Assembly (NCBI RefSeq): GCF_900177765.1
Contig: NZ_FXWI01000004.1
Location: 186,001-250,000 of the forward strand
From: Agreia sp. VKM Ac-1783
GTDB lineage: Bacteria; Actinomycetota; Actinomycetes; Actinomycetales; Microbacteriaceae
Length of the DNA: 64,000 nt
Direction: 5' to 3'
Made by a program: the position numbers and the translations under genes. This document shows positions 39,268 to 54,711 of the stretch, one piece after another; positions within the stretch are counted from its first letter, which is position 1; each line of letters starts with the position of its first letter. The notes below the pieces were generated by a model. The model had not been told where the DNA came from. It made no database searches and saw only the letters and a list, made by a program, of their open reading frames with translations.

Positions 39268-40151
39268 CCCTTCACCGCACCGGCTGCGAGCCCGCGCATG
39301 ACGCGTTGGTTGAGCACGAGGTACAGAGCCAGAATGATGAAGACGTTGATACAGATCGCCGCGAAAGTCGGCCCGTAATCGACGACCCCGAACTGTCCCG
39401 TGAAGTTGAGCAAGCCCACCTGCACGGTCCGCAGACTGTCGTCAGTGGTGAACGTGAGCGCGATCAGCAGGTCGTTCCAGAGAAAGAAGAACTGCACCAG
39501 CGCGATGGTGAAGATCGCGTTTCGCATCATCGGCAAAGCGATGAAGAAGAACGACTTCAGCGTGCTCGCACCGTCGATCGTCGAGGCCTCGAAGATCTCC
39601 CGCGGGATGTTGCGGAAATACGTCGCCATCATGAACACGGTCAAGGGCAGCGCCGTGGCCGTATAGGTGATGATGAGCGGCCAGAGCGTGGAGCTGAGGC
39701 CGAGGTTGAAGTACACGGAAAACAGTGGCAGCAGGATCATCTGACCCGGGATCATGATGCCCACGAGGAACACGAGCAGCAGGGTGTTGCGGCCTTTGAA
39801 GACCATGATCTCGAGCGCGAATCCGGCGGCGGTTCCGATGAGGAGGCAGATCGCAAGAGAGGGGAAGACGGCGATCACTGAATTGAGCAGATAGTGCGCC
39901 GTGGACTCCCACGCGATGGAGTAATTGGAGAAGTTGAACCAGTTCTCCGGCAAAGCCCATGTCGGGTTGTTCAGGAATTCATCTTGCGTTTTCAGCGAGC
40001 CAAGCACCAGCCAGACGAGCGGGTACACGAAGACGATCAGCAGAACTGCCACGACGATCCAGCCTGGGATCTTGCCGAGCACAGACCTTGTGCTGCGCCG
40101 ACGCCGCACGGTCTGCAACGGCCGGGGGGACGCGGTTGCGGTGTTCGTCAT
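39264..40151 (-). CDS. ABC sugar transporter permease, MalG type (operon 1)
   Basis: 295 residues, six membrane helices after a basic N-terminal leader. The cytosolic EAA loop YFRNIPREIFEASTIDGAST marks a CUT1-type permease that contacts the ATPase. With the MalF-type gene (40148) and the lipoprotein (41109) it forms an oligosaccharide importer; the GH78 neighbour points to rhamnose-containing ligands. ATGA overlaps link it to genes on both sides. Confidence 0.93.
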   Translation of the reverse strand: MTNTATASPRPLQTVRRRRSTRSVLGKIPGWIVVAVLLIVFVYPLVWLVLGSLKTQDEFLNNPTWALPENWFNFSNYSIAWESTAHYLLNSVIAVFPSLAICLLIGTAAGFALEIMVFKGRNTLLLVFLVGIMIPGQMILLPLFSVYFNLGLSSTLWPLIITYTATALPLTVFMMATYFRNIPREIFEASTIDGASTLKSFFFIALPMMRNAIFTIALVQFFFLWNDLLIALTFTTDDSLRTVQVGLLNFTGQFGVVDYGPTFAAICINVFIILALYLVLNQRVMRGLAAGAVKG

Positions 40152-41035
40152 GAGAACTCCTTAGAGTTGCGCGCGGTGGAGCGGAAGATGGCGACCGTGA
40201 CGAGCAGGCACATGATCGTGAGCATGAGGGCGATTGTTGAGCCGTACCCGTAGTCACCCCCGGCGAACGCGGTGCGGTACATGTAGAGAGTCAGCGGTGT
40301 CGTAGCGGAGCCCGGGCCGCCACCTGTCAGTGCGTAGATGGAGTCGAAGACCTTGAGCGTGCCGTTGATACTGAAGATGCCGGCCGCGATGATCACGGGC
40401 CAAGAGAGCGGGATCACTATGCGGCGTATGAGGCTGAAGGTGCCGGCGCCGTCTAGCCGTGCCGCCTCCATGACGTCGTCGGGGATGTCGATCACCCCGG
40501 TATAGAGGAGCACGCCGTAGAAGCCCATGGCGCGCCAGATGTCCATGATCGCGATCACCACGAATGCGGTTCCTGGATTGCCCAGCCAGTCGACGGACTC
40601 CATGCCGAGTCCGTTCAGAACTGAGTTGACGAGTCCCGTCTGGGGCGCGAACTCGAACATCTTCTGGAAGAGCAGCGAGACAGCCACGGTGGGCAGTACC
40701 ACCGGGAAAAACACCAGGGTGCGCACGACGTTCGACGCCCGTTTGAGAAAGAAGGTGTAGAGCAACGCCAAGAGATAGCCGAAGACGATCTGGCCGACGG
40801 TCACTACCAGCGCATATTTGATGGTGAAGAGCACGGCTGGGCCGGAATTCGGGTCGTTCCAGAACCGTGCGAAGTTCGCGAACCCCGCGAACTCGAATCC
40901 GCCGAGAACGCTTCCCGTGAAGAAGGTGTAGCCCAGCGACCACAGCATTGGCAGCAGCATGACCAGGGTGTAGACGAGCAGCGCCGGCCCGAGCAGGACC
41001 CCGATTGCGCGCTTGTCGCTGAGTACGGATTTCAT
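40148..41035 (-). CDS. ABC sugar transporter permease, MalF type (operon 1)
   Basis: 295 residues, six membrane helices; EAA loop IPDDVMEAARLDGAGTFSLI. CUT1-family inner membrane half of the importer. It lies 73 bp beyond the binding-protein gene, past a strong hairpin that probably lowers permease expression relative to the binding protein. No ATPase gene is found in the locus. Confidence 0.93.
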   Translation of the reverse strand: MKSVLSDKRAIGVLLGPALLVYTLVMLLPMLWSLGYTFFTGSVLGGFEFAGFANFARFWNDPNSGPAVLFTIKYALVVTVGQIVFGYLLALLYTFFLKRASNVVRTLVFFPVVLPTVAVSLLFQKMFEFAPQTGLVNSVLNGLGMESVDWLGNPGTAFVVIAIMDIWRAMGFYGVLLYTGVIDIPDDVMEAARLDGAGTFSLIRRIVIPLSWPVIIAAGIFSINGTLKVFDSIYALTGGGPGSATTPLTLYMYRTAFAGGDYGYGSTIALMLTIMCLLVTVAIFRSTARNSKEFS

Positions 41036-41108: not shown

Positions 41109-42410
41109 TCAGTTAGTGATCGACGACTGAACGGTGTTCATGAAGTCGGAGCCCGAAAGCTGGCCGGACCCCAGCGGGCCGCCGTTGGTCTGGCTTGCCG
41201 TGGTGGCAGCCGGACCGAAGAGGGCCTCGAACCACTGGACCGTCTCACCGGAATCGGCGATCTCGGTCTGGACCAGCTGAGTCAGAGGTGGCACCTCGAC
41301 GTCACCGTTGACTGCGAAACCAGTGATCTGACCCTCACGAAGTGCCGCAGCACCGTAGTTCGCGGCGATACAGCTTGCCCACGACTTGACCTTCTCGTCG
41401 CCGTCGTAAGCCGACTTCGAGAAGGCGATGTCGGTACCCACGTTGGCCGGGGTCTGGTCTGCCGAGCCCTTGCCGCCACTGACTGCGGGGAAAGGCAAGA
41501 AGCCGATGTTGTCGGCTCCGATCTTGTTCTGCTCCGGGTCATTGAATGCAGAGACTGCCCATGAGCCCATGTAGTAATAGGCCGCCTGGCCGGTGAGGAA
41601 CTGGTTCAGCGCCGTGGCGTAGTCGATGGAACTCGGCGAAGGACCGAAGTAACCGGATGAACCGAGCTCAGCAACGACGTTCGCGGCGTCGGCGTACTCC
41701 GGGTCGGTCAGCTTGGCAGATCCGTCAGAGATCTTCTTCAGCGCGTCGGGGCCGAGGGTGCGGTAGATGTAGGCGCCCACCCAGCGAGTGACACCCCATC
41801 CGTCGCCGCCCTTGCCTGCGGCGGAGATGGGCTGAACACCGGCGGAATCCAACGTGGCGAAGGAGTCCTTAAGAGATTCCCAGGAGGTCGGCTCGGAGAC
41901 GCCGGCTTTTTCGAGCAGCGCCTTGTTGTACCAGATGCCCTCGATATTCAACTCGGTGGGCAGCACAAGAGTCTTGTCGTCATACAGTGTGTGAACTCCG
42001 GACAGAGCCACCGGCACGATCGACTTCTCGACGTCCGTGCCCGTGAAGTCGGTCACCTTGCCGGCACTGTCGAGCTCTTTGAGCAGGTCGGGCGAGTTCG
42101 GCGACACGAAGGCCGACGGAAGCGCATTCTGGCCACCCAGCAGCTGAAGCTGCTGGTCGAGCGAGGCCTGCGCCTGCTTGTTGATCTTCAACGGAAGCGC
42201 CTTGTTCTCGGCGGCGCACTCGTTCTCGCTGAGCGAGGTCAGGACCGTGGGGATGGTGCTGTTTTCGTTGATGGCGAGAAAGGTGAACTCTTTCGCCGAG
42301 CTGCCTGCACCCGATCCACCCGACGAACAGGCCGCGAGGCCTATGGCGACGACGGCAGCCGCAGCCGCCGTCAATACGGTGCGACGAGCGCGAGATGTGC
42401 TGTGGAACAT
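41109..42410 (-). CDS. Extracellular sugar-binding lipoprotein of the ABC importer (operon 1)
   Basis: 433 residues from ATG 42410, preceded by a perfect AAGGAGG; the longer open frame upstream crosses the promoter and is rejected. The signal ends in a lipobox (VVAIGLAACSSG). The type I family 1 binding-protein body follows, with the conserved LGPDALKK...LTDPEY and QNKIG.DNIGFLPFP segments. It captures the oligosaccharide outside the membrane for the permeases at 39264 and 40148. It is a close paralogue of the protein at 53308. Control is by the operator at 42439-42450 immediately after the -10. Confidence 0.92.
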   Translation of the reverse strand: MFHSTSRARRTVLTAAAAAVVAIGLAACSSGGSGAGSSAKEFTFLAINENSTIPTVLTSLSENECAAENKALPLKINKQAQASLDQQLQLLGGQNALPSAFVSPNSPDLLKELDSAGKVTDFTGTDVEKSIVPVALSGVHTLYDDKTLVLPTELNIEGIWYNKALLEKAGVSEPTSWESLKDSFATLDSAGVQPISAAGKGGDGWGVTRWVGAYIYRTLGPDALKKISDGSAKLTDPEYADAANVVAELGSSGYFGPSPSSIDYATALNQFLTGQAAYYYMGSWAVSAFNDPEQNKIGADNIGFLPFPAVSGGKGSADQTPANVGTDIAFSKSAYDGDEKVKSWASCIAANYGAAALREGQITGFAVNGDVEVPPLTQLVQTEIADSGETVQWFEALFGPAATTASQTNGGPLGSGQLSGSDFMNTVQSSITN

Positions 42411-42438: not shown

Positions 42439-42450
42439 TGAAGCGCTTCA
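42439..42450. promoter_or_regulatory. LacI-family operator TGAAGCGCTTCA (operon 1)
   Basis: A perfect 12-bp palindrome 2 bp downstream of the -10 box of the minus-strand promoter and 28 bp before the binding-protein start. A bound LacI protein would block RNA polymerase. The same 12-mer recurs at 43843, 54637 and 54671. Confidence 0.85.
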
Positions 42451-42451
42451 C

Positions 42452-42481
42452 AATATACCGACGACTTTGTCAGAACGTCAA
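42452..42481 (-). promoter_or_regulatory. Promoter of operon 1
   Basis: On the minus strand the -35 is TTGACG (42481-42476), an 18-bp spacer follows, and the -10 is TATATT (42457-42452). The operator begins two bases later. This is the best housekeeping-type promoter seen in the window. Confidence 0.7.
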
Positions 42482-42519
42482 CTCGCGATATCGCTGCTCC
42501 CGCATAATGGTTCGACATC

Positions 42520-43557
42520 ATGTCTGTTTCAGAGAGAACTCCCCCAGCGCCGTCCGCAGCGCGAATGGAGGACGTCGCCAAAAGGGCCGGTGTCGCTCTC
42601 GGCACGGTCTCGAATGTCATCAACCGACCTCAAAAGGTCTCGCGCTCCACTATCGAGAAAGTGCAACGCGCGATATCTGAGCTCGGCTTCGTTCCTAACC
42701 GTGCTGCCCGCGCCCTCGCGGCAGGCACGAGCAATACCATCGGCGTCGTCATCGCCGACCTCAGCAACTCATTCTTCGTCGACATGGCCCGCGGGGCTGA
42801 AAGTGTTGCGGCGGAATCGTCGATCAACGTGGTGCTCGCCAATACCGACATGCGCCGGTCGAAACAGGCATCGAACCTCGACCTGTTCCGGCAGGAGCGC
42901 ATGGCGGGCATTCTTCTCGCGCCCCTGCCGGGGGCAGATAGCTCACTGCTGACCGGTCGAAACGGAACGCCTCTGGTCTTCCTGAATGACGCCGCCATCG
43001 AAGGCGCCTGCACGGTGAGCGTCGACAATGAGCATGGGGGTTACCTCGCTGCGACCCACCTGCTCGCCATCGGCCGTCGGCGACTCCTGTTTGCCGGAGA
43101 CCCTGCTCAGGCCGTGCCGATCGCCGACCGTCTTCGAGGTGTCGAACGTGCGGTGCGCGAAGTGGTCGACGCAAGCCTCGAGGTCATCCGCACACCCGAG
43201 GTACAGGCCGAGAATGGGCGCACTCTGGGGTTCGACATCGCATCCCGTCCCACATCAGAGCGTCCCGATGGAATCATCGCCGCGGCTGACCTGCTCGCGC
43301 TGGGTCTGGTGCAGATCTTGGGATCCGACCCGTCCATCCGCATACCGGAGGACATTGCGATCACGGGGTACGACAACAACCGCGCCGCGTGGGAGAGTCT
43401 CGTTCCTATCACCACCATCGCCCAGCCCGGCGAGCAGATCGGCGCCGTGGCAATGGCACTGCTTCTCGAGGAGATCCGCGATCCCGAAGGCCACGAGCAC
43501 GCGCATTCGGTGCTTGAGCCCACGCTCGTGGTGCGGGCGAGCACACAACGCACCTGA
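42520..43557 (+). CDS. LacI family regulator 1 of the rhamnoside locus
   Basis: 345 residues. HTH at 16-37 (MEDVAKRAGVALGTVSNVIN), hinge with NRAARALAAGTSN (about 60-72), then a ligand-binding core. It is divergent from operon 1. There is no ribosome site before ATG 42520, and a CATAAT box ends 11 nt upstream, so a leaderless transcript is likely. Recognition-helix residues (L, G, N in the three key positions) match those of the LacI at 46719, so both should read TGAAGCGCTTCA. The inducer is probably a rhamnose-related sugar. Confidence 0.92.
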   Translation: MSVSERTPPAPSAARMEDVAKRAGVALGTVSNVINRPQKVSRSTIEKVQRAISELGFVPNRAARALAAGTSNTIGVVIADLSNSFFVDMARGAESVAAESSINVVLANTDMRRSKQASNLDLFRQERMAGILLAPLPGADSSLLTGRNGTPLVFLNDAAIEGACTVSVDNEHGGYLAATHLLAIGRRRLLFAGDPAQAVPIADRLRGVERAVREVVDASLEVIRTPEVQAENGRTLGFDIASRPTSERPDGIIAAADLLALGLVQILGSDPSIRIPEDIAITGYDNNRAAWESLVPITTIAQPGEQIGAVAMALLLEEIRDPEGHEHAHSVLEPTLVVRASTQRT

Positions 43558-43876
43558 CAGTGACTCGACTGCGCGCAGGAAGCCGGAGTGCCGACTGAGT
43601 TCAGTCCCGGCGTGCTTTCCGGACCGATCGGAAGGGCTACTCATACCGGCGTCCACTGTCGTCGATCGTGTGGCGCTGCTTCGCGTAATCGACATGACGA
43701 TGCCAAAACGCTGTCCGTAGCCCGAATCGAGCCTGCCGAGGCTGTCGCGGTCAAGCCGGGCAGAAATGTAGCGCTTCAACAGCTCAGCGAACACGACCTT
43801 GCCAGGTCACCTCTCTATGTGGTTTGGTGGTGAAGCGCATTATGAAGCGCTTCATTGCAGCTCAAGGAGGAACTGA
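43558..43876 (+). promoter_or_regulatory. 319-bp gap upstream of GH3: operator plus flanking half-site
   Basis: Palindrome ATGAAGCGCTTCAT at 43842-43855 contains the shared 12-mer (43843-43854). A half-site TGAAGCGCAT lies at 43831-43840. A CATTAT -10-like box (43838-43843) overlaps the operator; no clear -35 is seen. The first about 250 bp show no gene or strong structure. Confidence 0.75.
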
Positions 43877-46618
43877 ATGATGACAAAACGAAGATTCGCA
43901 CGAGTCGTGGCCGCCTCGGGGGCCGGCCTGCTTGCCTTATCGGCGTTGACCGGGGCGGCCGCCGCCCCAGACCAGCCATGGCGGGACACGTCGCAGACGC
44001 CGGAGTGGCGCGCGAGCGCGCTGCTGTCGGCCATGACATCCGACCAGAAGGTGACACTCATCCTCGCGACGAACGATGCCGACTTCGCACCGCTGGCCTA
44101 CCTCGGCATACCCGAGATGAGACGAGTTGATGCGTCGGGAGGCCTTCGAGGCGACACGGGCGTCACAGCCTTCCCAGCGCCGAACGCCCTGGGCGCCACG
44201 TTCGATACCGAGCTCGCAGGCGAGTACGGGTCCGTCATCGGCGCCGAGGCGCACGGTAAGCGCTGGAACGTCGTGCTCGGTCCGACTGTGGACATCGACC
44301 GAAACGGACTGTCCGGCCGCGCAGCCGAAGGATACGGCGAAGACACTCTCGTCAACGGCAAGATGGGGGCCGCCGTCGCCGCGGGTGTCGAGAGCGAGGG
44401 GGTGAGCACGATGATCAAGCACTTCGCCGCCTATGCCCAGGAAAGTGGACCGCGCGAGACCCTGGGAGTCGAGGTCTCAGAGCGAGCACTTCGTGAGCTC
44501 TACTACCCGCCGTTCGAGACGACTGTGGTCGAGGGAGGCGCGGACTCGGTGATGTGCGCGTATCCCCGCGTCAACGGTACCTACGCGTGCGAGAACCCCG
44601 ACATGTTGACGGCGCTGAAGACCGATCTTGGTCTCGACGGATATGTCGCTACGGACTTCGATCCTCGGTCCGACTGGATTTCCGGAATCAACGCGGGCGT
44701 CGACTCCCAGTCACTGTTCGCGAAGACAGATCGCACGCCGTTCACAGACGGGCGCATCTCAGCCGAGCGTGTCGACGATGCTGTCTACCGCATCCTCTTG
44801 GCGCTCTTCGATTCCGGCGCGTTCGATACGCCACTGCCCGCCGAGGCGGCCTCCGTCGTGACCAACGACGAGCATCTCGGGACTGCCGTCAAGACCGGCG
44901 AAGAAGCGACCGTGCTCCTGAAGAACTCCGGAGTCCTCCCGCTCAGCAATGAGCCGTCAGTGGCTGTCATCGGCCCAGCTGGAGGGGATGCGATTACCGG
45001 CATCGAAGGGTCTTCATACGTAAACCCTGGCGATTTCGTCACTCCTGCCGAGGCGATCTCCGCCAAAGCCGATGACGTCACGGTGTCTCAGGGATCCGTC
45101 GGCGATGTGGTGCTGCCCACGGCACCCGCATCGGCATTCGGAGCGGGACTCAATGCCGAGTACTTCGGCAGTGCCGACCTCTCCGGCCCTGCGATTTCAA
45201 GCGGAACCGCGTCGAACATCGACTTCTCCGGGGCTCCGGTCGAGGGGCTTCCCTCGACCTGGTCCGCTCGCTACTCCGGCACGATCACCCCGACATCCAC
45301 CGGGCTCCTCCGGCTGTCGTCTCTGCTTTCCGGAAGCGCGAAGGTCACGGTGAACGGCGAGACAGTCTTCGACGGAACCCGTTTCATCTGGGACTTCTTC
45401 TTCGCACCCCAGGAGTACACGCTGGGTGGGGTCGTCGAACTGGAGGCGGGCGTGCCCGCAGACATCGTCGTGGAGTACTCGACCGCAGGCGGTGGCTTCT
45501 TCGGACCGCGCATGACACTCGGCTGGCAGCCCGACAGTCTCATCCCCGCGGCTGTCGAAGCCGCGCGCAACTCGGATGTGGCGGTCGTGTTCGCAAATGA
45601 GTTCACGGGCGAAGCAGTCGATCGAGTTGGTCTCTCTTTGCCCGGCGACCAGAACGCACTGATCGAGGCGGTCGCGGCGGTGAATCCGAACACGATTGTT
45701 GTCCTCCACACTCCGGGCCCCGTGCTCATGCCATGGCTCGACGATGTGGCCGCGGTCACCCAGGCCTGGTACCAGGGAGCGGCAGTCGGCGAGAGCATCG
45801 CGAATGTGCTCTACGGCGATGCGGATCCAGGGGGCCGTCTCCCGATGACCTTCCCGGCCTCGAGCGAGCAGGGCCCAGCTCTTGTGCGCGACAGCAGCGA
45901 GGTGAGCTACGACGAAGGCATCTACGTCGGGTACAAGTGGTACGAGCAGAACGACGAGACGCCGCTCTTCCCGTTCGGATACGGCGAGTCGTACACCAAC
46001 TTTGCCTACTCCGACCTGACGACGACGCCGATGCTGATTCCGGCGTCACCGGTCGATGGCCCGTCAACGGCGGCTTCGATCGCGGCCACTCCCGCAACAG
46101 CATCTGTGACGATCACCAACACGGGCGAGCGTGCCGGGTCCGACGTGGTGCAGTTCTACGCTGGAGCACTGCCGACGGATGCTGTCGACACGGTCGATCG
46201 GGCGCTCGCCGGATTCGCGAAGGTCGATCTGGAACCGGGCGAATCTCAGCGCGTCACCGTCAAACTCGATAACCGCGTGCTGTCATATTGGGACACCGCG
46301 GCCGATCGTTGGGCGACACCGACTGGTAGCGTTCCGCTGGTTGCGGCGCGATCCGCTGCCGATGATCAACTGTCCTCGTCGGTTGCGGTCTCTGTCGCAC
46401 CGACGTCGACGGGCCCCGACGGAACGCCGGGGGACGGCGCACCGGGCACCGATCCGGCCGGCAACCAGCTCGGAGCATCCGGTTCGGACAAGCTCGCCGC
46501 AACGGGAAGCAGCACGGTAGCCAGTTCGGGCTTGCTCGCCGGTCTGCTCCTGATGTTGGGCGCTGGCCTGGCAGTTCAGCGTCGGCTGTCGCGCGCTTCA
46601 CAAACGCGCCGGAGCTAG
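43877..46618 (+). CDS. Secreted GH3 glycosidase with PA14 domain and LAATG wall-sorting tail
   Basis: 913 residues; AAGGAGG 6 nt upstream of ATG 43877. Order: Sec signal peptide (about 1-32), GH3 N-terminal barrel with KHFAAYAQ and nucleophile D260 (YVATDFDP), GH3 C-terminal domain interrupted by a PA14 insert (about 415-540, beginning GLNAEYFGSAD), Fn3-like domain (about 720-850), then LAATG (873-877), a hydrophobic helix and an arginine-rich end. The tail fits a sortase-anchored wall protein with an alanine instead of Pro at position 2. GH3 enzymes remove terminal beta-D-glucose, xylose or similar; the exact sugar is unknown. It starts glycan breakdown outside the cell, under the operator at 43843. 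Confidence 0.88.
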   Translation: MMTKRRFARVVAASGAGLLALSALTGAAAAPDQPWRDTSQTPEWRASALLSAMTSDQKVTLILATNDADFAPLAYLGIPEMRRVDASGGLRGDTGVTAFPAPNALGATFDTELAGEYGSVIGAEAHGKRWNVVLGPTVDIDRNGLSGRAAEGYGEDTLVNGKMGAAVAAGVESEGVSTMIKHFAAYAQESGPRETLGVEVSERALRELYYPPFETTVVEGGADSVMCAYPRVNGTYACENPDMLTALKTDLGLDGYVATDFDPRSDWISGINAGVDSQSLFAKTDRTPFTDGRISAERVDDAVYRILLALFDSGAFDTPLPAEAASVVTNDEHLGTAVKTGEEATVLLKNSGVLPLSNEPSVAVIGPAGGDAITGIEGSSYVNPGDFVTPAEAISAKADDVTVSQGSVGDVVLPTAPASAFGAGLNAEYFGSADLSGPAISSGTASNIDFSGAPVEGLPSTWSARYSGTITPTSTGLLRLSSLLSGSAKVTVNGETVFDGTRFIWDFFFAPQEYTLGGVVELEAGVPADIVVEYSTAGGGFFGPRMTLGWQPDSLIPAAVEAARNSDVAVVFANEFTGEAVDRVGLSLPGDQNALIEAVAAVNPNTIVVLHTPGPVLMPWLDDVAAVTQAWYQGAAVGESIANVLYGDADPGGRLPMTFPASSEQGPALVRDSSEVSYDEGIYVGYKWYEQNDETPLFPFGYGESYTNFAYSDLTTTPMLIPASPVDGPSTAASIAATPATASVTITNTGERAGSDVVQFYAGALPTDAVDTVDRALAGFAKVDLEPGESQRVTVKLDNRVLSYWDTAADRWATPTGSVPLVAARSAADDQLSSSVAVSVAPTSTGPDGTPGDGAPGTDPAGNQLGASGSDKLAATGSSTVASSGLLAGLLLMLGAGLAVQRRLSRASQTRRS

Positions 46619-46633
46619 CAGATCCGCCTGACT

Positions 46634-46676
46634 CCGGGGCCGTCGCATCGCACTCTGATCGATGCGGCGGCCCCGG
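46634..46676 (+). terminator. Strong terminator hairpin after GH3
   Basis: CCGGGGCCGTCGCATCG (46634-46650) pairs with CGATGCGGCGGCCCCGG (46660-46676), 17 bp with one G-U pair and a 9-nt loop, 16 nt after the GH3 stop. No T-run, as is common in actinobacteria. The rest of the gap leads to the next LacI gene. Confidence 0.75.
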
Positions 46677-46718
46677 CGCTAGTGTGGAGAAAGATCCCCG
46701 CCCGGCAGGAGTAATACA

Positions 46719-47831
46719 GTGGTGAACGCAGCATCGGCCCCGACGGCCAGCGGCAAGAACGGCTCCGTGACGATGCTCGATGTCGCCCACCATGCCGGCG
46801 TGGCAATCGGAACCGTTTCGAATGTGCTCAACCACCCCGACGGAGTGACACCGTCGATCCGAGACCGCGTCATCGCTTCCATCGACGAGCTCGGCTTCGT
46901 GCGCAACCGCACCGCCAGCAAGCTCGCAGCCGGCGTCAGCAACACGGTAGGCGTGGTCCTTGCCGATCTCGACAACTCCTACTTCACAGACATGGTCAGG
47001 GGCGCCGAGGGGGCGGCATCGAAGGCCGGCAAGTTCGTGGTCGTCGGCAACTCCGACATCGACATGTCGAAACAGCGCTCCTACCTGAACTACTTCGATG
47101 AAGAGCAGGTGTCGGGAATTCTCGTTGCTCCCCTGGGTGGTGTGATCCCTCCGACGGATCGACACCTCGCCATAAGGCGCCCCGTGGTCATTCTCGACGC
47201 TGCCCGTCAGCAACATGCTCACTGCGCGGTGAGCACTAACAACGTCGCGGCGGGACGGATGGCTGCGGAGCATCTGCTCGGTCTCGGTCGGCGACGATTG
47301 ATCTTCGCGGGCGGGCCGATAACCCGGTCTCGAGCCCTGGCCGATCGCCTACAAGGGGCGAAGGACGCCGTAGCCGAGGTCGCCGGGGCAACGCTCGAGC
47401 ACATTCCAACCGACGAAGTTCAGATAGAAGGCGGTCGCCAGGTCGGCTCTCTGCTCATCGAGCGCGGTGCCGATACGCTGCCAGACGGAATCGTTGCCGC
47501 TGCCGATCTGCTCGCCCTGGGCATCGTGCAAGTCCTGACGTCGTCTTCGCCCTATCGCTTCCCCGACGATGTCGCGCTGGTCGCGTGTGACGACAACCGC
47601 TCGGCCTACGACAGCATCGTTCCCATCTCCACCGTCGATCTGCCGGGACGCGAGATGGGGTCAGTCGGAATGCGCCTGCTTCTCGAAGAACTGACCGACG
47701 GTGACGCGCACGAGCATGAGCATGTCACTCTGGACCCCACACTCACGGCTCGCGAAAGCACCCTCGGCCGCAGCCGTACCCCCGCCCGCGAAGACGAGCA
47801 GTCACCGATCCCGCACCCTGTCGACGCCTAA
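46719..47831 (+). CDS. LacI family regulator 2 of the rhamnoside locus
   Basis: 370 residues from GTG 46719 or 46722, AGGAG 7-10 nt upstream. HTH at about 19-40 (MLDVAHHAGVAIGTVSNVLN), hinge NRTASKLAAGVSN, and a ligand-binding core whose first segments (VGVVLADLDNSYFTDMVRGAE) mirror regulator 1. The recognition-helix residues are the same as in regulator 1 (I for L, G, N). No copy of the shared operator is found directly upstream. A long acidic/basic tail (GRSRTPAREDEQSPIPHPVDA) follows the core. Its end overlaps the convergent GH43 gene by 4 bp. Confidence 0.92.
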   Translation: MVNAASAPTASGKNGSVTMLDVAHHAGVAIGTVSNVLNHPDGVTPSIRDRVIASIDELGFVRNRTASKLAAGVSNTVGVVLADLDNSYFTDMVRGAEGAASKAGKFVVVGNSDIDMSKQRSYLNYFDEEQVSGILVAPLGGVIPPTDRHLAIRRPVVILDAARQQHAHCAVSTNNVAAGRMAAEHLLGLGRRRLIFAGGPITRSRALADRLQGAKDAVAEVAGATLEHIPTDEVQIEGGRQVGSLLIERGADTLPDGIVAAADLLALGIVQVLTSSSPYRFPDDVALVACDDNRSAYDSIVPISTVDLPGREMGSVGMRLLLEELTDGDAHEHEHVTLDPTLTARESTLGRSRTPAREDEQSPIPHPVDA

Positions 47832-48880
47832 CCATCCTCGTAATCGTCAGGACTCCATGAGTCGTGCCACTCGATGACGGGAATGTCTCCGTCGAATCGG
47901 ATCGGAAGCCACACATAGTCGGCGATCGACGAGTCGACATGCGCGAACTCCTCCATGGGCTCGTCGCCGTCTCGGCCCGGAGCAAAGTGCTTTTCGAATT
48001 CCTGGAATGCTCTGGATCCGTCGTCGAGGTATCCAGGAAGCCACCGGTCGCCGAGCGCGATGTACAGGTCTCGCTTGCCCGGATGTTTGAAGATCGATGA
48101 GATCTGCGAGTGGAACGACGTGCGTGAGGCGTCGGTGGGATGCGGATCGCCCAGAGTTGTATAGGGCCCGTGATAGCTGGCCGCGACCGCCGATTCCGAG
48201 GGGTTCGGGTAGTACCCCGTGGTGCCTGAGGTGATCAGATAGTGCTTGCGATTGCGGGCGAAGTAGGCGGGGGCCTCTCGAACGTAGGGAGGCTGCGGCT
48301 GCGGGAAGTGCGTGGAATAGTAGCCGGTCACGTTCGTGTAGTCGTCGGTCAGATCTGCGACGATCATCTCCGAGTGCACTCGCTCGAAGTAGTAGTAAGC
48401 CTTGCCGTCGTGAGGATCGACGACCAGGTCGAAGTCGCCGGCACTCATGCCGAGCGGCCGGAGCCACTGGGTGACCGTCGAGTAGGGACCGAGTACATCG
48501 TCTGCCACGAGCACGGTGGATCGTTGCACAGACCCCTTGCTCATCACTTTGAGCCAGCACACGTACTTGCGAGTGTGCGGGTTGTAGATGATGTGCGGCC
48601 GATCCATGCCCGCCCCCGGGTAGAGCGGCGATTCATCGTCATCTGGCGCCGGTGGAATGATCAGCCCACGGTCGGTCCAGTTGACCAGGTCGGTCGAGGA
48701 GTAGCAGCGCACGCCCCAGTGCCAGATTCCACTACCCGGCGTCGATCGTTCCTTGTTCTCGCCGTACCAGTAGAAGATGCCGTCGACGACGATGATCGAG
48801 CCCCCGTGCGCCTGAATACGGTTGCCCTCAGTGTCGTTCCATACGCGGCCGGGGTAGATGAGGTTCTGCTGTTCGCTCAT
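47828..48880 (-). CDS. Glycoside hydrolase family 43 protein (GH43_24-like)
   Basis: 350 residues, no signal peptide. The N-terminal IQAHGGSIIVVDGIFYWYGE followed by CYSSTDLVNWTDRG is typical of GH43 beta-propellers and most like the exo-beta-1,3-galactanase subfamily (GH43_24); five blades fit the length. It may release galactose from beta-1,3-galactan chains, though the substrate is only inferred. Start overlaps the GH78 stop (ATGA). It is the last gene of operon 2. Confidence 0.8.
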   Translation of the reverse strand: MSEQQNLIYPGRVWNDTEGNRIQAHGGSIIVVDGIFYWYGENKERSTPGSGIWHWGVRCYSSTDLVNWTDRGLIIPPAPDDDESPLYPGAGMDRPHIIYNPHTRKYVCWLKVMSKGSVQRSTVLVADDVLGPYSTVTQWLRPLGMSAGDFDLVVDPHDGKAYYYFERVHSEMIVADLTDDYTNVTGYYSTHFPQPQPPYVREAPAYFARNRKHYLITSGTTGYYPNPSESAVAASYHGPYTTLGDPHPTDASRTSFHSQISSIFKHPGKRDLYIALGDRWLPGYLDDGSRAFQEFEKHFAPGRDGDEPMEEFAHVDSSIADYVWLPIRFDGDIPVIEWHDSWSPDDYEDG

Positions 48881-51480
48881 GTGATCTTTCTGAGTTCGGG
48901 GATTCGGATACGTGAAGAAAGCTCGTGGGTGCCTGCGCCGAGCTGCCGCCCGTCGGCCTCACCGGGCAGCACCACCTCGGCGGTCACGCCAAAGGGAACC
49001 GTCGCGGTGAGGTGAAACCGGTCGTCATCGAGTCGCCAGGAGACTTCGATACGCCCGTAAGGGCTGTCGAATCGAGTGGCGGCGGCGCGCACGGTTCCTC
49101 CCGGCTTGGGGGCGATGCGCACGCGTCGATAGCCGGGTCCGATCGGAGCCAAGCCGGCGACCGTGCGATGCATGAAATCGACGACCGCTCCCAACGCATA
49201 GTGGTTGAACGACGTCATGTCGCCCGGATTGACGCGACCATCAGGCAGCATGCTGTCCCAGCGCTCCCAGATGGTCGTCGCTCCCATGGTGATCGGGTAC
49301 AGCCACGACGGGCACTCGGTCTGCTGAAGCAGCGCGTAGGCGGACTCGACATGGCCCGTCTCAGCGAGAGCACCGCAGATGATCGGTGTTCCGACGAAGC
49401 CAGTCTGGATGCGATGGCCACCCTCGGCGACAAGGTCGGCCAGGCGCGTTCCGGCTTCCGCTCGCTGATCACCACGTTCGAAGAGATCGAAGGCAAGGCT
49501 GAGAGCGAGCGAGGTGGGAGACTCACCCGTCATGGGGCCCGAAGACAGAACCCATTCTCGGCGGAAGGCTGAGAGGGTGCGGTCGGCCAGGTCTGTGTAG
49601 GCGCTCTTGGCCTCGTTGTCTCCCAGGAGTCCTGCAACATCGGCGACGATGCGGGCCGATCGCACAAGGTACGCCGTGGTCACGAGATATTTATCCGTGC
49701 GCGCAGCGCCCGGGTCCTCTGGCGGAGCGATCGGATCGAGCCAGTCGCCCAATGCGAAGCCCGACCGAATCACGCCGTCCTCATCGGCACGTGCCGCGAG
49801 ATGCTCGACCCAGCCCCGCATGCTCGCGTATTGCTGCGACAGTATCCCGGCGTCGCCCAACTGCTCCCACATGACCCAGGGCACTATGGCAGACGCGTCG
49901 CCCCAGACAGCCGAGGAGGCCTCAGGGAATCCGCAGGGAACCCACGGAACGAAGTTGGGCACCGCGCCGCCCGCGTGCTGTTCGTCGGCGACGTCACGAA
50001 GCCAGCTGTCGAGCACCCCCGCGCTGCGATAGAGATATGACGCGGCAGGTGCGAACACCTGGATGTCGCCGGTCCAGCCCATGCGCTCGTCCCGTTGCGG
50101 ACAGTCCGTGGGGAGATCGACGAAGTTGTCGCGCATGCTCCAGACCGTGTTGTCGTGGAGTTTCTGCAGCATCGGATCGTCGACCGTGAACCAACCGGTG
50201 CGCTCCATATCCGTGTGCAGTACTACCGCCTTCACAGATTCCGGCGCGAGAGTGACGGCAGGCCAGCCGTCGAGCTCCGCGTAGCGGAAACCGTGGATCG
50301 TGAAGCGGGGCTGCCACACCTCTTCACCCTCACCTCGGAAGGTGTAACGGTCGATAGAGGTGGCCCGACGAAGCGTGCGTACCGCGAGTTCGTCGTTTTC
50401 GAGGACCTCCGCGTGGTGCAGGCGAAGCACATGGCCCGCGTCGCCCGCCGCCCGGAACGATAGTCGTCCGGAGATGTTCTGACCGAAATCAAGCCGGATG
50501 CGTCCATTCGGCCTGTATTCGACAGTGACGGGAGATAGCGTGTCGACCTGCCGCACGGGTTCTGCCACGGCATGTTCGATTCGCGCGGAGACGCTGGTCA
50601 GCTCCCGCAGTTCCGGACGCACCCACAGCGAGTCGTCATATTCAGCACGCGCCCAACCGGCTTCGTGCAACCTCGCGTCGAACTCCTCGCCCTCGTAGAG
50701 CCCTGCCGACGTAGTGGGGCCTCTGGAGGCGCGCCAGGCGTCGGCTAGATCGACGAGCTGCGGCACGCCATCGTCGCCGGTCAGTTCGAGCTGTGCAACG
50801 ATGCCGATGTGAGAGCCGTATAGGTCCCAGACCCCTCCGTCGAAGCCGATGTTTCCGCGGAACCACCCGTCTGCAAGCTCAATGCCGATGGCATTCGCTC
50901 CGGTGATCAGTAGCGGGGTGACATCGTAGGCCTGGGCTCGCAGACGGTGGTCGTAGCTTGTCCATCCGGGCGCGAGCTCATCATCCCCGACGCGGAGACC
51001 GTTGATCTCGGACCGATAGATTCCTTGCGCCGTCATGTAGAGCCGGGCGCGCACCGGCGCGACCTCGACCTCGAATTCGGCACGGAGCATCCATGCCGGC
51101 CGGGGGCCGGAGTGCGGGGCCGATGCCGACGGTACGACGAGGTGGACAGCCCAGTCCTCGCGCCGCAGCAGTCCGGTTTCGAGGCGGAGTGCTTCACCCC
51201 AGTCACCCGTCGTTCCGTCAGCAAGACCAACCCGTGCTCGAACGTCGACGATCTCCCGCGAGGCGAGGGGGTCGAATGGCCAGTCGACCAGAACCTGCTC
51301 CGCTCCTTCTACCCGCGCCATCTGAGTGCGACCGTCGAGCGTGGTCTTCTCGAACTCGGTCCAGAGGAGTTGGCTGTCCGAAGGGGAATCCACCCACCAC
51401 GACAGACGAGGTGTCGACGTGCCCAGGCCGTGGGCCTCTCGGCGGTGTTCCGCCCGCAGTCGGGTTACCAGGGCGCTCAT
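48877..51480 (-). CDS. Alpha-L-rhamnosidase, GH78 (copy B)
   Basis: 867 residues from ATG 51480, whose overlap with the permease stop (ATGA) fixes the start against a longer open frame. No signal peptide. DCPQRDERMGWTGDIQ (D459-Q474) and TIWERWDSMLPDG ... MTSFNHYALGAV repeat the GH78 catalytic signatures of copy A; the N-terminal region is more diverged. It cuts terminal alpha-L-rhamnose from an imported glycan. Operon 2 places it between the MalG-type permease and the GH43 enzyme. Confidence 0.93.
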   Translation of the reverse strand: MSALVTRLRAEHRREAHGLGTSTPRLSWWVDSPSDSQLLWTEFEKTTLDGRTQMARVEGAEQVLVDWPFDPLASREIVDVRARVGLADGTTGDWGEALRLETGLLRREDWAVHLVVPSASAPHSGPRPAWMLRAEFEVEVAPVRARLYMTAQGIYRSEINGLRVGDDELAPGWTSYDHRLRAQAYDVTPLLITGANAIGIELADGWFRGNIGFDGGVWDLYGSHIGIVAQLELTGDDGVPQLVDLADAWRASRGPTTSAGLYEGEEFDARLHEAGWARAEYDDSLWVRPELRELTSVSARIEHAVAEPVRQVDTLSPVTVEYRPNGRIRLDFGQNISGRLSFRAAGDAGHVLRLHHAEVLENDELAVRTLRRATSIDRYTFRGEGEEVWQPRFTIHGFRYAELDGWPAVTLAPESVKAVVLHTDMERTGWFTVDDPMLQKLHDNTVWSMRDNFVDLPTDCPQRDERMGWTGDIQVFAPAASYLYRSAGVLDSWLRDVADEQHAGGAVPNFVPWVPCGFPEASSAVWGDASAIVPWVMWEQLGDAGILSQQYASMRGWVEHLAARADEDGVIRSGFALGDWLDPIAPPEDPGAARTDKYLVTTAYLVRSARIVADVAGLLGDNEAKSAYTDLADRTLSAFRREWVLSSGPMTGESPTSLALSLAFDLFERGDQRAEAGTRLADLVAEGGHRIQTGFVGTPIICGALAETGHVESAYALLQQTECPSWLYPITMGATTIWERWDSMLPDGRVNPGDMTSFNHYALGAVVDFMHRTVAGLAPIGPGYRRVRIAPKPGGTVRAAATRFDSPYGRIEVSWRLDDDRFHLTATVPFGVTAEVVLPGEADGRQLGAGTHELSSRIRIPELRKIT

Positions 51481-52343
51481 CCTTTCACCGATCCAGCTGT
51501 CAGGCCCTTCATGACCTTCTGATTGAGGAAGAGGTAGAGCACGAGCGTGCCGACGACATTGACCGCAATTCCCGCGAACATCGGACCATAGTCGACGGCT
51601 CCGTACTGACCCGTGAAGTTGAGGAGGCCCGCCTGAATCGTGCGCAGATCCTGGCTGTTCGTGAAGGTGAGTGCGATCAACAGGTCGTTCCAGATGAAAA
51701 AGAACTGCACGAGCGCGACCGTGAAAAGCGCATTGCGCACGAGCGGCATACCGACCGACCAGAAAATTCGATAGATGTTCGCGCCGTCCAGCGTGGCAGC
51801 CTCGAAGATCTCTCGCGGAACAGCTCGGAAGAAGGTCGCCATCATGAACACGGTGAGAGGCAGACCCGTGGCCGTGTAGGTGATGATCAGCGGCCAGAGC
51901 GTCCCTGTGAGATGAAGCTTGAAGTAGATCGTGAACAGAGGCAACAGGATCATCTGCAACGGGATCATGACACCAGCGAGGAAGACGAGGAGAACGGCTC
52001 CGCGGCCTTTCCACACCATGACTTCGAGGGCGAAACCCGCAGCTGTTCCCAGCAACAAGATGAGAAACATCGAAGGGAAGACCGCGATCACGCTGTTGAG
52101 GATGTACTTGCCGAGGCCACCTCCCACGAAGGCTTCGACGTAGTTATCGAGGCTCCAACTTCGAGGCAGTGACCAGAACGGCTCGCTGAGGAATTCATCC
52201 TGCTGTTTGAACGAGCCGAGCAGTAGCCAGATCAGCGGGTAGGCGACGATGGCGAGCAGAATGGCGACGCCGATGAAGACCGGCAGGCGTCGTACGAAAG
52301 TGCGGACACGACGGTGGAACGGCGTTACGGCGAGAGTGGTCAT
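51477..52343 (-). CDS. ABC sugar transporter permease, MalG type (operon 2)
   Basis: 288 residues, six membrane segments, EAA loop FFRAVPREIFEAATLDGANI. Paralogue of the permease at 39264 with similar motif order. CUT1-type importer subunit coupled by 4-bp overlaps to the MalF-type gene and the rhamnosidase. Confidence 0.93.
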   Translation of the reverse strand: MTTLAVTPFHRRVRTFVRRLPVFIGVAILLAIVAYPLIWLLLGSFKQQDEFLSEPFWSLPRSWSLDNYVEAFVGGGLGKYILNSVIAVFPSMFLILLLGTAAGFALEVMVWKGRGAVLLVFLAGVMIPLQMILLPLFTIYFKLHLTGTLWPLIITYTATGLPLTVFMMATFFRAVPREIFEAATLDGANIYRIFWSVGMPLVRNALFTVALVQFFFIWNDLLIALTFTNSQDLRTIQAGLLNFTGQYGAVDYGPMFAGIAVNVVGTLVLYLFLNQKVMKGLTAGSVKG

Positions 52344-53230
52344 TTTTCGTTCCTCGTGAGGTCACGGCGCGACGCGCGAAAGATGAAGATCGTCACCAGC
52401 AGGCACATCACCGTGAGCATCAGCGCCACTGTGCTGCCGTAGCCGTATTGGCCGAAGCTGAACGAGGTCTGGAACATGTAGACGGTCAGCGGTGTCGTCG
52501 AGGTGCCGGGGCCTCCGTTCGTCAGAGCTACCACTGAGTCGAAGACCTTGAGAGTGCCGTTGATGCTGAAGATCGTCGCTGACAGAAGAACCGGCAATGA
52601 CAGCGGAAGAATGATGTGCCGGACGAGGCGCCAGCCGGCTGCCCCGTCGATGCGTGCGGACTCGATGATGTCTTCGGGGATCTCGACAACACCGGCGTAG
52701 AGAAGGACTGCATAGAAGCCCATAGACCGCCAGAGGTCCATCATGAGGATCACCCAGAACGATGCATCCGGCTGCCCGAACCAGTCGAACGTGTTGAGCC
52801 CGATGAATTCCATGATCGAGTTGATCGGCCCCTCTGTCGGAGCCGCTTCGAAGAACCGACGGAACAGCAGCGCCACAGCGACCGTGGGGAGGATCACAGG
52901 GAAGAAGACCAGCGTTCGCACGAGCGACGAAGCCTTTTTCAGGAAGAAGACGTACAACAGGGCGAGGGCGTAGCCGACGACCACCTGCAGAACGGTGAGG
53001 ATGAGTGCGTAGCGGAGAGTGAACCCGACCGCCTCGAGGGCCGTGGGGTCGTTGAAGAAGCGAACGAAGTTATCGATGCCGACGAACTCGAACCCGCTGA
53101 CCGCATTGCCCTCGTAGACGGTGTAGACAAGAGACCACACGATCGGGACGAGCATGACAAGGGAGTACACGAGCAGGGCGGGACCGAGAAGCACGAGAAC
53201 GGCACGTGGGTTGCCGAGGAGTCTTTCCAT
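52340..53230 (-). CDS. ABC sugar transporter permease, MalF type (operon 2)
   Basis: 296 residues from ATG 53230 (AAAGG about 8 nt upstream); a longer frame to 53269 lacks a ribosome site. Six membrane helices, EAA loop IPEDIIESARIDGAAGWRLV. CUT1 permease, paralogous to 40148. Separated from the binding-protein gene by a 77-bp gap with a stem-loop. Confidence 0.92.
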   Translation of the reverse strand: MERLLGNPRAVLVLLGPALLVYSLVMLVPIVWSLVYTVYEGNAVSGFEFVGIDNFVRFFNDPTALEAVGFTLRYALILTVLQVVVGYALALLYVFFLKKASSLVRTLVFFPVILPTVAVALLFRRFFEAAPTEGPINSIMEFIGLNTFDWFGQPDASFWVILMMDLWRSMGFYAVLLYAGVVEIPEDIIESARIDGAAGWRLVRHIILPLSLPVLLSATIFSINGTLKVFDSVVALTNGGPGTSTTPLTVYMFQTSFSFGQYGYGSTVALMLTVMCLLVTIFIFRASRRDLTRNEK

Positions 53231-53249
53231 GGGTGTGCCTTTATTTCGT

Positions 53250-53291
53250 CGCTGCAAGAGCGGAGCCACAGACGACTCCGCCCTCGCAGCG
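53250..53291 (-). other. Two-part stem-loop between binding protein and permease genes (operon 2)
   Basis: CGCTGC (53250-53255) pairs with GCAGCG (53286-53291), and GCGGAG (53260-53265) with CTCCGC (53276-53281), with an internal loop between. No T-run. It sits at the same place as the perfect hairpin in operon 1 and could stabilise the upstream message or attenuate transcription. Confidence 0.55.
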
Positions 53292-53307
53292 GGTGAATGA
53301 GAGAGGG

Positions 53308-54612
53308 TTACTTGTTCGCGTCCTGCACGAGCTTCATGAACGCTTCTCCCGTGAGCGTGCCGGCCGCGAGCCCACCACCGTTCTTCTGACTGACCGCCGT
53401 CGCCTCCGGGCTGAAAGCGGCCTCGAACCAGAGAACGCTGCTGGGGGCCTCAGCGATGATGTTCTGCACTTCCTGGGTGAGGGCGGGCTGATCGGCTGGC
53501 GGGTTGTTCACCACGAAACCCGTGACCTGACCGAACTCGTTCAGTGCGACATCGCCGTAATTGGCTGTCACGCAATCGAGCCACTGGGCGACATCGTCGT
53601 CGTAGCCCTTCTCTGTGAACATGACCGGGATTCCGACGTTCGCTGGCACCTGGTCGATGGTGCCCTTGCCGCCTTCGACAGTCGGGAAGGGAGTGAAGCC
53701 GATGTTGTCGACTCCGATCTTGTTCTGCTCTTGATCGTTAAACGCGGCGAGCGCCCAGCTGCCCATGTAGAAGAAGGCTCCTCCACCGGTGAGGAACTGG
53801 TTGAGAGCCGTGTTGTAGTCGATCGATCCCGCGGCTGCCCCGAAGTACCCAGCGGTTCCCAGCTCTGCTACGGCATCCGCGGCCGCGACGTACTCGGGAT
53901 CGGTGAGGGACGCGTCTCCGTCGGCCACTTTCTTGAGCGCGTCTGGGCCGAGGTCGCGCGCGATGTAGTCACCGACCAGACGCGTGATGGGCCATCCGTC
54001 TTTTCCTGCAGCGATGAAAGGCTGCACGTCATTCGCCTGGAGAGTGGCCGCCGCATCGACGAGCTCGTCCCACGTGGCTGGAGCCTCGATGCCGTTGTCA
54101 GCCAGGATCTGCTTGTTGTACCAGAATCCCTCGATGTTGAACTCGGTCGGCAGCGCGTACAGATCGCCACCACCGTAGAGGGCCTTGATCGTCGACTCGG
54201 CAGCCGGGAGTACGCGGCCCTCGAGACCTTCTTTCTTGAAAGTTTCCGAGAGGTTGAGCACCTTTCCGGAGTCGATGAACTCCTGCATGAGGGAGGGTGT
54301 TCCGCCCGCCATGCTCATGTCGGAGAGGGCGTCCTGGCCGGCGAGCAACTGAAGCTGCTGATCCCACGTCGTGCCATCGATCGCGTCGGCCTTCAGCGGC
54401 GCTGCCTTCTCCGCTGCGGCGCACTTGTCTTTGGCCAGGACGTCGAGGGTGCCCGAGATAGCCGTGTTCTGGGTCTGCCCCAGGTACGTGAATTCCTTCG
54501 TGCTCGATCCGCCGCCGCCACCGCCCGCACAGCCAGTCAGGGCGATGACACCCACGCCCACGGCAGCAACGATGGATAGGTTTCGCCGGCGATGCCCGCG
54601 TGCTGTGATCAT
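53308..54612 (-). CDS. Extracellular sugar-binding lipoprotein of the ABC importer (operon 2)
   Basis: 434 residues; AAGGAGG 7 nt upstream of ATG 54612. Signal with lipobox (VIALTGCAGG). The body shares long blocks with the operon 1 protein, such as LGPDALKK, YNTALNQFLTG, and QNKIGVDNIGFTPFP, indicating a paralogue with a similar but probably not identical ligand. It serves the permeases at 51477 and 52340. Two operator copies lie in its promoter. Confidence 0.92.
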   Translation of the reverse strand: MITARGHRRRNLSIVAAVGVGVIALTGCAGGGGGGSSTKEFTYLGQTQNTAISGTLDVLAKDKCAAAEKAAPLKADAIDGTTWDQQLQLLAGQDALSDMSMAGGTPSLMQEFIDSGKVLNLSETFKKEGLEGRVLPAAESTIKALYGGGDLYALPTEFNIEGFWYNKQILADNGIEAPATWDELVDAAATLQANDVQPFIAAGKDGWPITRLVGDYIARDLGPDALKKVADGDASLTDPEYVAAADAVAELGTAGYFGAAAGSIDYNTALNQFLTGGGAFFYMGSWALAAFNDQEQNKIGVDNIGFTPFPTVEGGKGTIDQVPANVGIPVMFTEKGYDDDVAQWLDCVTANYGDVALNEFGQVTGFVVNNPPADQPALTQEVQNIIAEAPSSVLWFEAAFSPEATAVSQKNGGGLAAGTLTGEAFMKLVQDANK

Positions 54613-54636
54613 TGTTTCCTCCTTGAAACATGCGCC

Positions 54637-54648
54637 TGAAGCGCTTCA
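54637..54648. promoter_or_regulatory. LacI-family operator TGAAGCGCTTCA (operon 2, proximal)
   Basis: Exact copy of the 12-mer, 24 bp before the binding-protein start. The centre-to-centre distance to the next copy is 34 bp. Confidence 0.85.
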
Positions 54649-54670
54649 TATTTTGAGCGGAAAGCGCCGG

Positions 54671-54682
54671 TGAAGCGCTTCA
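54671..54682. promoter_or_regulatory. LacI-family operator TGAAGCGCTTCA (operon 2, distal)
   Basis: Second exact copy, 34 bp from the first by centres, about three helical turns, which may allow two repressor dimers to cooperate. Confidence 0.85.
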
Positions 54683-54711
54683 TAAGTATGAGTGTGGAGG
54701 GGAAAGATGCT

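Follow-up and report, generated by a model that had tools for sequence, protein, structure and literature searches.

In Escherichia coli, GalR and GalS are two LacI-family relatives that share operators. The subject of this report is a pair of LacI-family repressors, LacI-1 and LacI-2, whose operator and sugar are unlike those of GalR and GalS, and which are encoded in a 64,000-nucleotide stretch of the genome of Agreia sp. VKM Ac-1783 (contig NZ_FXWI01000004.1, positions 186,001 to 250,000; the whole stretch is termed the window, and positions follow its numbering). There, four exact copies of the 12-mer TGAAGCGCTTCA stand before genes predicted to serve rhamnoside utilisation. On balance, the locus appears to comprise two cassettes with overlapping regulons, in which LacI-1 and LacI-2 would each show a graded preference for the operators of the home cassette.

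In the accounts drawn on here, related LacI repressors that share operators are a known kind of system, represented by GntR/IdnR and AraQ/MalR1. GntR and IdnR of E. coli are related LacI-family repressors whose target genes are homologous; IdnR sites are also recognised by GntR, at whose targets sites about 13 bp apart are known (Ravcheev 2014, PMC4052901). However, a recent duplication was inferred for that pair, whereas LacI-1 and LacI-2 are about 52% identical and lie in separate cassettes, and cross-recognition, which is reported for GntR/IdnR, is here a prediction. AraQ and MalR1 of Bifidobacterium breve are likewise two distinct LacI-type regulators of one actinobacterium with near-identical operators, but they concern central metabolism, use another operator and were studied by gel shift (PMC6882875), whereas the Agreia case is a local rhamnoside locus analysed from its sequence.

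Rodionova 2013 (PMC3870299) predicted that LacI-type regulators control the uptake of rhamnosides in actinobacteria. The Actinomycetales RhaR regulon described there (rhiLFG, ramA/rhmA) resembles the Agreia locus in its LacI-family control of rhamnoside ABC transporters and alpha-L-rhamnosidases, and RhaR is predicted there to govern rhamnose as well as rhamnoside genes. In Agreia, by contrast, a RhaR-like protein is found at rhaI with an operator of its own, and the rhamnoside cassettes have their own repressors. Amino-acid (AA) and nucleotide (NT) positions are numbered here as in Camas 2010 (PMC2978694), whose recognition code connects AA15/AA16 with NT-5/NT-4, AA20 with NT-6 and AA55 with NT-2. 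That code is for the TVSR group, whereas the Agreia subfamily is TVSN/TVSH, and neither "NT-7" nor "TVSN" appears in the main text of that paper. Within the LacI literature compared here, there is no account of a TVSN/TVSH subfamily code, of a link between AA32 and NT-7, or of cassette stacking.

Two repressors and a predicted shared core operator

A pattern search found TGAAGCGCTTCA at 42439, 43843, 54637 and 54671, before the two operons and the GH3 gene, exactly where the first-pass annotation had placed it. The genome-wide search proposed in that annotation added no exact copy: the four in the window are all that the 3,762,434-base genome contains, and the reversed pattern occurs at one site. 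From the composition of the window, chance would give 0.12 copies per genome under a single-base model and 0.20 under a first-order Markov model. Further regulon sites elsewhere in the genome were considered and rejected, since no exact copy exists there and one-mismatch copies are at background (14 genomic sites with at most one mismatch versus 21 for the reversed control). The sites at the locus, none of which is assigned to a strand, are as follows.

42439..42450: operator O1 (predicted), TTGAAGCGCTTCAC with outer bases, between SBP1 and lacI-1
43831..43842: decayed site TGAAGCGCATTA adjoining O2; its counterparts in A. pratensis and Agreia sp. Leaf283 are perfect 12-mers
43843..43854: operator O2 (predicted), ATGAAGCGCTTCAT, before GH3
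54637..54648: operator O3 (predicted), CTGAAGCGCTTCAT, before SBP2
54671..54682: operator O4 (predicted), GTGAAGCGCTTCAT, before SBP2, 34 bp from O3

The 12-mers lie about 22-58 bp 5' of the start codons of SBP1, GH3 and SBP2 (SBP, solute-binding protein), and the one at 42439 also lies between SBP1 and the divergent lacI-1. SBP1 has a promoter-like site (TTGACG-18-TATATT; one found, 0.4 expected in shuffles), and O1 begins 1 bp past its -10-like hexamer. As is characteristic of the LacI/GalR family, the operator is palindromic with a central CG and is found in local promoter regions. A full-text literature search for TGAAGCGCTTCA and GAAGCGCTTC with LacI, which covers one library and was judged by title, returned no LacI-operator paper. 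The spacings in Agreia, 12 bp in the O2 pair and 32-34 bp between O3 and O4, are near the published LacI-family peaks of 13 and 32 bp (PMC4052901). At 43831-43854 the two 12-mers before GH3, both perfect in A. pratensis and Leaf283, stand head to tail without a gap, by the usual view too close for side-by-side dimers; the arrangement resembles the 13-bp class of LacI-family sites. Between GH3 and lacI-2 the 12-mer is absent, and a consensus scan found no lacI-2 promoter. The same gap holds a strong inverted repeat, noted by eye at 46635-46676 and mostly kept in three Agreia genomes, which the consensus scan did not call a terminator.

The two repressors, with their residues at the numbered positions, are listed below.

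42520..43557, plus strand: LacI-1, module 1 repressor (AA15 Leu27, AA16 Gly28, AA20 Asn32, AA32 Thr44, AA55 Ala67)
46719..47831, plus strand: LacI-2, module 2 repressor (AA15 Ile30, AA16 Gly31, AA20 Asn35, AA32 Ile47, AA55 Ala70)

Both score above cut-off for PF00356 and PF13377, the LacI helix-turn-helix and a periplasmic-binding-protein-like domain, which places them in the LacI/GalR family; 27 LacI proteins in the genome are above the Pfam cut-off. Their recognition helices read A-L-G-T-V-S-N-V (LacI-1) and A-I-G-T-V-S-N-V (LacI-2), so the GTVSNV ascribed to both was read correctly, and the helices of the window's other two LacI proteins (1148-2218 and 61106-62197, both minus strand) differ from them. 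The accompanying claim of identical residues at the three usual specificity positions is borne out for AA16 (Gly) and AA20 (Asn), and the hinge residue AA55 (Ala) also agrees, but AA15 is Leu in LacI-1 and Ile in LacI-2, a conservative change. Identity between the two is 34/57 in the DNA-binding part and 136/267 in the ligand part, and for this reason their sensing may differ. The dN/dS ratios between the window and A. pratensis, 0.07 for lacI-1 and 0.10 for lacI-2, point to purifying selection, so that neither gene looks dispensable.

The core was followed through 79 related loci, found by homology to the regulators from the best 80 matches. The exact 12-mer is present in 57 of these (77 sites), and each of 179 other palindromes of the same make-up in two at most. 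Nearly all of the sites (71/77) lie no more than 300 bp upstream of a module-gene homologue, or no more than 60 bp inside the start of the longest frame. Over 63 rows of a regulator tree built without the DNA-binding part, Leu and Ile have replaced one another at AA15 at least 10 times, and the locus of 11 of the 12 Ile15 regulators has the exact 12-mer, with the window and A. pratensis loci holding both regulators. The metagenome-assembled genome (MAG) bin_70 (L106) has its single genomic 12-mer at a LacI-1-type module and Microbacterium halimionae (L175) has all three of its copies at a LacI-2-type module; neither has a second Leu/Ile15-Gly16-Ala55 LacI among the relatives found. Herbiconiux solani has two genomic copies, one at module 1 and one elsewhere. 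The prediction of a core operator shared by the LacI-1 and LacI-2 types is well supported, because single-regulator genomes keep the same 12-mer and Leu and Ile interchange at AA15; the tie of both regulators to this core is indirect, through those genomes and the subfamily-wide association.

An unprompted palindrome scan of the 500 bp upstream of 115 distinct LacI frames with Gly at AA16 and Asn or His at AA20 returned the same core, TGAAGCGCTTCA, with Leu/Ile15 in 42 of 71 cases. Other residues at AA15 go with other cores: TGAATCGATTCA with Val15 (4/14), TGATGCGCATCA with His15 (3/6) and TGGAGCGCTCCA with Arg15 (both of the two having Asn20). No Leu/Ile15 regulator in the scan had TGAATCGATTCA, TGATGCGCATCA or TGGAGCGCTCCA. 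Here Ala at AA55 occurs with G at NT-2 and Arg with T, which fits the AA55-NT-2 link of Camas 2010 (PMC2978694).

One LacI protein outside the window (C5:118417-119427) also has GTVSNV, with Val15 and Arg55. The gene for this RhaR-like protein is divergent from the L-rhamnose isomerase gene rhaI (TIGR02635, above cut-off), and the gap between the two genes contains TTGAATCGATTCAA, an operator different from the 12-mer, whose 12-bp core TGAATCGATTCA is present in a single copy in the genome.

L182:10414-12685 (G000:C5): RhaR-like gene and rhaI region with TGAATCGATTCA, about 67 kb before the window

GTVSNV is therefore insufficient to define the 12-mer, and was ruled out as the determinant of the site, because the RhaR-like protein (Val15/Arg55) combines it with another core. 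Control of L-rhamnose catabolic genes by the 12-mer, as in a RhaR regulon, was not found in this genome, where it stands solely at the stacked locus and the genes are not rha genes.

Several other occurrences of the 12-mer were noted. One near module 1 of Herbiconiux solani (L104:11009-12475) stands at the start of a frame that by eye resembles a GH1 beta-glucosidase. In the Agreia genome G300 (L086, L087, L088) three exact copies are at or inside unrelated genes, one of them near a frame resembling ribosomal protein S2; the 12-mer alone is therefore no proof of an operator. Contig L172, filed as Stenotrophomonas maltophilia P13, holds a module of actinobacterial type that includes the 12-mer; its repressor falls with Microbacterium, and the contig would reflect either assembly contamination or transfer.

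Cassette structure and relatives

The remaining genes of the locus fall into two sets, termed modules 1 and 2. The basis of each assignment is given in brackets.

36649..39267, minus strand: GH78a, alpha-L-rhamnosidase (Pfam)
39264..40151, minus strand: permease 2 of module 1 (reading frame; same-order homologues in relatives)
40148..41035, minus strand: permease 1 of module 1 (reading frame; same-order homologues in relatives)
41109..42410, minus strand: SBP1, ABC transporter solute-binding protein (Pfam)
43818..54697, no strand: module 2 cassette (extent of the long match to Agreia sp. Leaf283)
43877..46618, plus strand: GH3 glycosidase with PA14 domain, module 2 (Pfam; solved relatives)
47828..48880, minus strand: GH43 (Pfam; nearest solved relatives include galactan 1,3-beta-galactosidases)
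48877..51480, minus strand: GH78b, alpha-L-rhamnosidase (Pfam)
51477..52343, minus strand: permease 2 of module 2 (reading frame; same-order homologues in relatives)
52340..53269, minus strand: permease 1 of module 2 (reading frame; same-order homologues in relatives)
53308..54612, minus strand: SBP2, ABC transporter solute-binding protein (Pfam)

Five Pfam models are found in each of GH78a and GH78b, as expected of GH78 enzymes, and the solved relatives of GH3 include beta-glucosidases. Given this content of two GH78 proteins, a GH43 and a GH3, the substrate is likely a rhamnose-containing glycoside or oligosaccharide, and no exact compound is claimed. By eye, the C-terminus of the GH3 frame (43877-46618) has LAATG followed by hydrophobic and then basic residues, which we take to be like the end of a sortase-anchored surface protein, and the GH78a and GH78b frames have no obvious signal peptide.

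Comparison with other genomes indicates that the locus is two stacked cassettes and no product of local duplication. Against Leaf283, Blast gave one long match, 43818-54697 (81.6% over 10.9 kb), which lies in other flanks and runs from GH3 and its operators through SBP2 and its operators; three weaker matches fall in homologous module 1 genes. Module 1, together with lacI-1, is present in Herbiconiux solani, where the 20 kb covered contain no module 2 genes. In A. pratensis both cassettes are stacked in the same order as in the window. Between the chromosomal flanks that border the stacked cassettes in the window, A. bicolorata has a single, different rhamnosidase module, whose repressor is of the His15 type and which carries TTGATGCGCATCAA. 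The His15 repressor AGVSHGTVSNFF with two abutting TTGATGCGCATCAA-based operators, one of which often has one or two changes, was seen in L069/L112 (Agreia bicolorata), L067, L068 and L073.

In a tree of 89 rows, one clade of 5 rows (support 97/91) unites LacI-1 with sequences from Herbiconiux, Rathayibacter and an actinomycete MAG, and another of 9 rows (support 95/100) unites LacI-2 with those of Leaf283, M. halimionae and further Microbacteriaceae. A recent tandem duplication of the regulator is ruled out by these separate supported clades with other genera. The description of the two as paralogues in the first-pass annotation holds in the wide sense, as old members of one subfamily, but they arrived with separate cassettes. 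The next-best relatives, 20 loci taken from 18 genomes of the family, include 17 Val15/Arg55 regulators and not one that combines Leu/Ile15 with Ala55, so two such regulators in one genome look uncommon. Leaf283 is a second genome with two Leu/Ile15-Ala55 regulators; it had been considered as a strict LacI-2-only genome, a role that was dropped on account of its second, Leu15/Ala55, regulator.

The outer base NT-7 and residue AA32

Outside the core, the four operators differ. NT-7 is T/G in O1, A/A in O2, C/A in O3 and G/A in O4. Counted in half-sites with the window and A. pratensis left out, NT-7 is T in 4/8 of the LacI-1 clade and in 3/22 of the LacI-2 clade, the other half-sites of the latter having A (10) or G (9); the corresponding counts are 7/8 for Nocardioides, 9/18 for the Arthrobacter group and 51/58 for the unsorted rest. 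AA32 is the column of the DNA-binding part that is best associated with NT-7 (Fisher p 3e-5). Over all cores, regulators with Thr32 have T at NT-7 in 103 of 134 half-sites, and those with any other residue in 9 of 42. Leaf283 speaks for such a link: its Thr32 regulator has a single exact site, which is T/T, and its Ile32 LacI-2 module has four, each of them A/A. Three independent AA32-NT-7 pairs were available, with agreement at 1.4-2.0 and contradiction at about 0 on average. These residue-base links are associations between sequences. In LacI complexes, AA32 is close to the DNA phosphate backbone.

Because NT-7 differs by cassette and tracks AA32, LacI-1 and LacI-2 may each have a preference for their own operators. 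For the same reason the single regulon proposed in the first-pass annotation, although its shared 12-mer core stands, is too simple. In its strongest form, one fully shared regulon would have both repressors binding all four sites about equally, with AND logic for two inducers or with one repressor dominating. The 12-bp core is identical at the four sites, AA16, AA20 and AA55 are in common, the core stays the same whether AA15 is Leu or Ile, and the DNA-binding part is more alike than the ligand part, so that sensing may differ; full sharing is nevertheless unlikely, since NT-7 splits by cassette and tracks AA32 in relatives and also within Leaf283.

A still less likely arrangement is that of two insulated local regulons, with LacI-1 acting on SBP1/lacI-1 only, LacI-2 on GH3 and SBP2 only, and the 12-mer a mere inheritance. 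The operators do look inherited per cassette, in that the outer bases of O1 are T/C in the window, A. pratensis and L106, and Leaf283 keeps the module 2 spacings of 12 and 32-34 bp exactly or almost exactly. However, one outer base pair is seldom an absolute barrier, and one NT-7 of O1 is G, a base accepted by the LacI-2 clade. It is very improbable that another protein reads the 12-mer and that its association with LacI-1 and LacI-2 is indirect, even with 27 LacI proteins in the genome, the three G300 copies at or inside unrelated genes, and many wider-family genomes having one 12-mer and one reversed-control copy alike, given the residue-site association and the module linkage in 57/79 loci.

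A number of observations weigh against overlapping regulons with graded home preference, or against the associations behind them. The exact 12-mer is missing from 22 of the 79 loci; 12 of these have a one-mismatch copy and 10 have neither, and among the latter all nine that could be typed have an AA15 other than Leu/Ile, the tenth being cut off, a point that favours the residue-site association. No CG-centred perfect palindrome is present in the 500 bp upstream of 14 of 38 Leu-Gly-Asn-Ala regulators, and five loci with Thr, Gln or Ser at AA15 retain the exact 12-mer (L132, L143, L134, L181, L152). With respect to NT-7, the Thr32 Agromyces/Leifsonia group has T in only 12 of 24 half-sites, O1 itself is T/G although LacI-1 is Thr32, the RhaR-like proteins of A. 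pratensis and A. bicolorata have Ala32 yet T/T, and L176 has Val32 yet T/T. The AA32-NT-7 link also emerged only once 56 columns and every residue had been compared, as the top result, and its rows are related; the three independent pairs, on supported branches, are not significant.

Proposed circuit and significance

The sites, cassette limits, core conservation and residue-site association were computed, and the binding, repression, inducers and cross-talk that follow are what we infer. Two self-contained rhamnoside-utilisation cassettes, each with a LacI-family repressor, would have been brought together, one beside the other, in an ancestor within Agreia: module 1 with SBP1, two permeases, GH78a and LacI-1, and module 2 with SBP2, two permeases, GH78b, GH43, GH3 and LacI-2. 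Both repressors belong to one actinobacterial subfamily, whose specificity residues (AA15 Leu/Ile, AA16 Gly, AA20 Asn/His, AA55 mostly Ala) go with the core TGAAGCGCTTCA. There would thus be two repressors with one core operator because the cassettes are stacked and both repressors share the core specificity of the subfamily.

Both are most probably classical repressors, each released by the sugar imported through its own ABC transporter; classical repression is proposed because O1 adjoins the -10-like hexamer of the SBP1 promoter-like site. LacI-2, with Ile at AA32, would prefer a purine at NT-7, and LacI-1, with Thr, would prefer T, the commonest base in the subfamily. LacI-1 would then favour O1 and LacI-2 would favour O2-O4, and because the core is common, each would also touch the operators of the other cassette, with weaker binding. 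Two inducers or a hierarchy, as suggested in the first-pass annotation, are both possible. A hierarchy, if there is one, would more probably have LacI-2 acting on lacI-1 than the reverse, because O1 is upstream of lacI-1 and no 12-mer is upstream of lacI-2.

A more general proposal, and a more tentative one, is a TVSN/TVSH rhamnoside-subfamily code for a 14-bp operator, in which AA15 (Leu/Ile, Val, His or Arg) and AA55 would choose the core and AA32 (Thr or not) the outer base. Such a code might let actinobacteria stack cassettes with related repressors and, through a single outer base pair, keep them partly apart; the window's species and Leaf283 would be two separate examples.

When a second sugar cassette with its own repressor is gained, two control circuits can merge. 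The window's locus, its sister species and the single-cassette relative offer a natural series, with module 1 alone, module 2 alone and both stacked, which is suited to asking what degree of cross-talk results and whether a single outer base pair suffices to separate the circuits. The residue-to-base association, if it reflects recognition, would extend the published LacI recognition code beyond the TVSR group.

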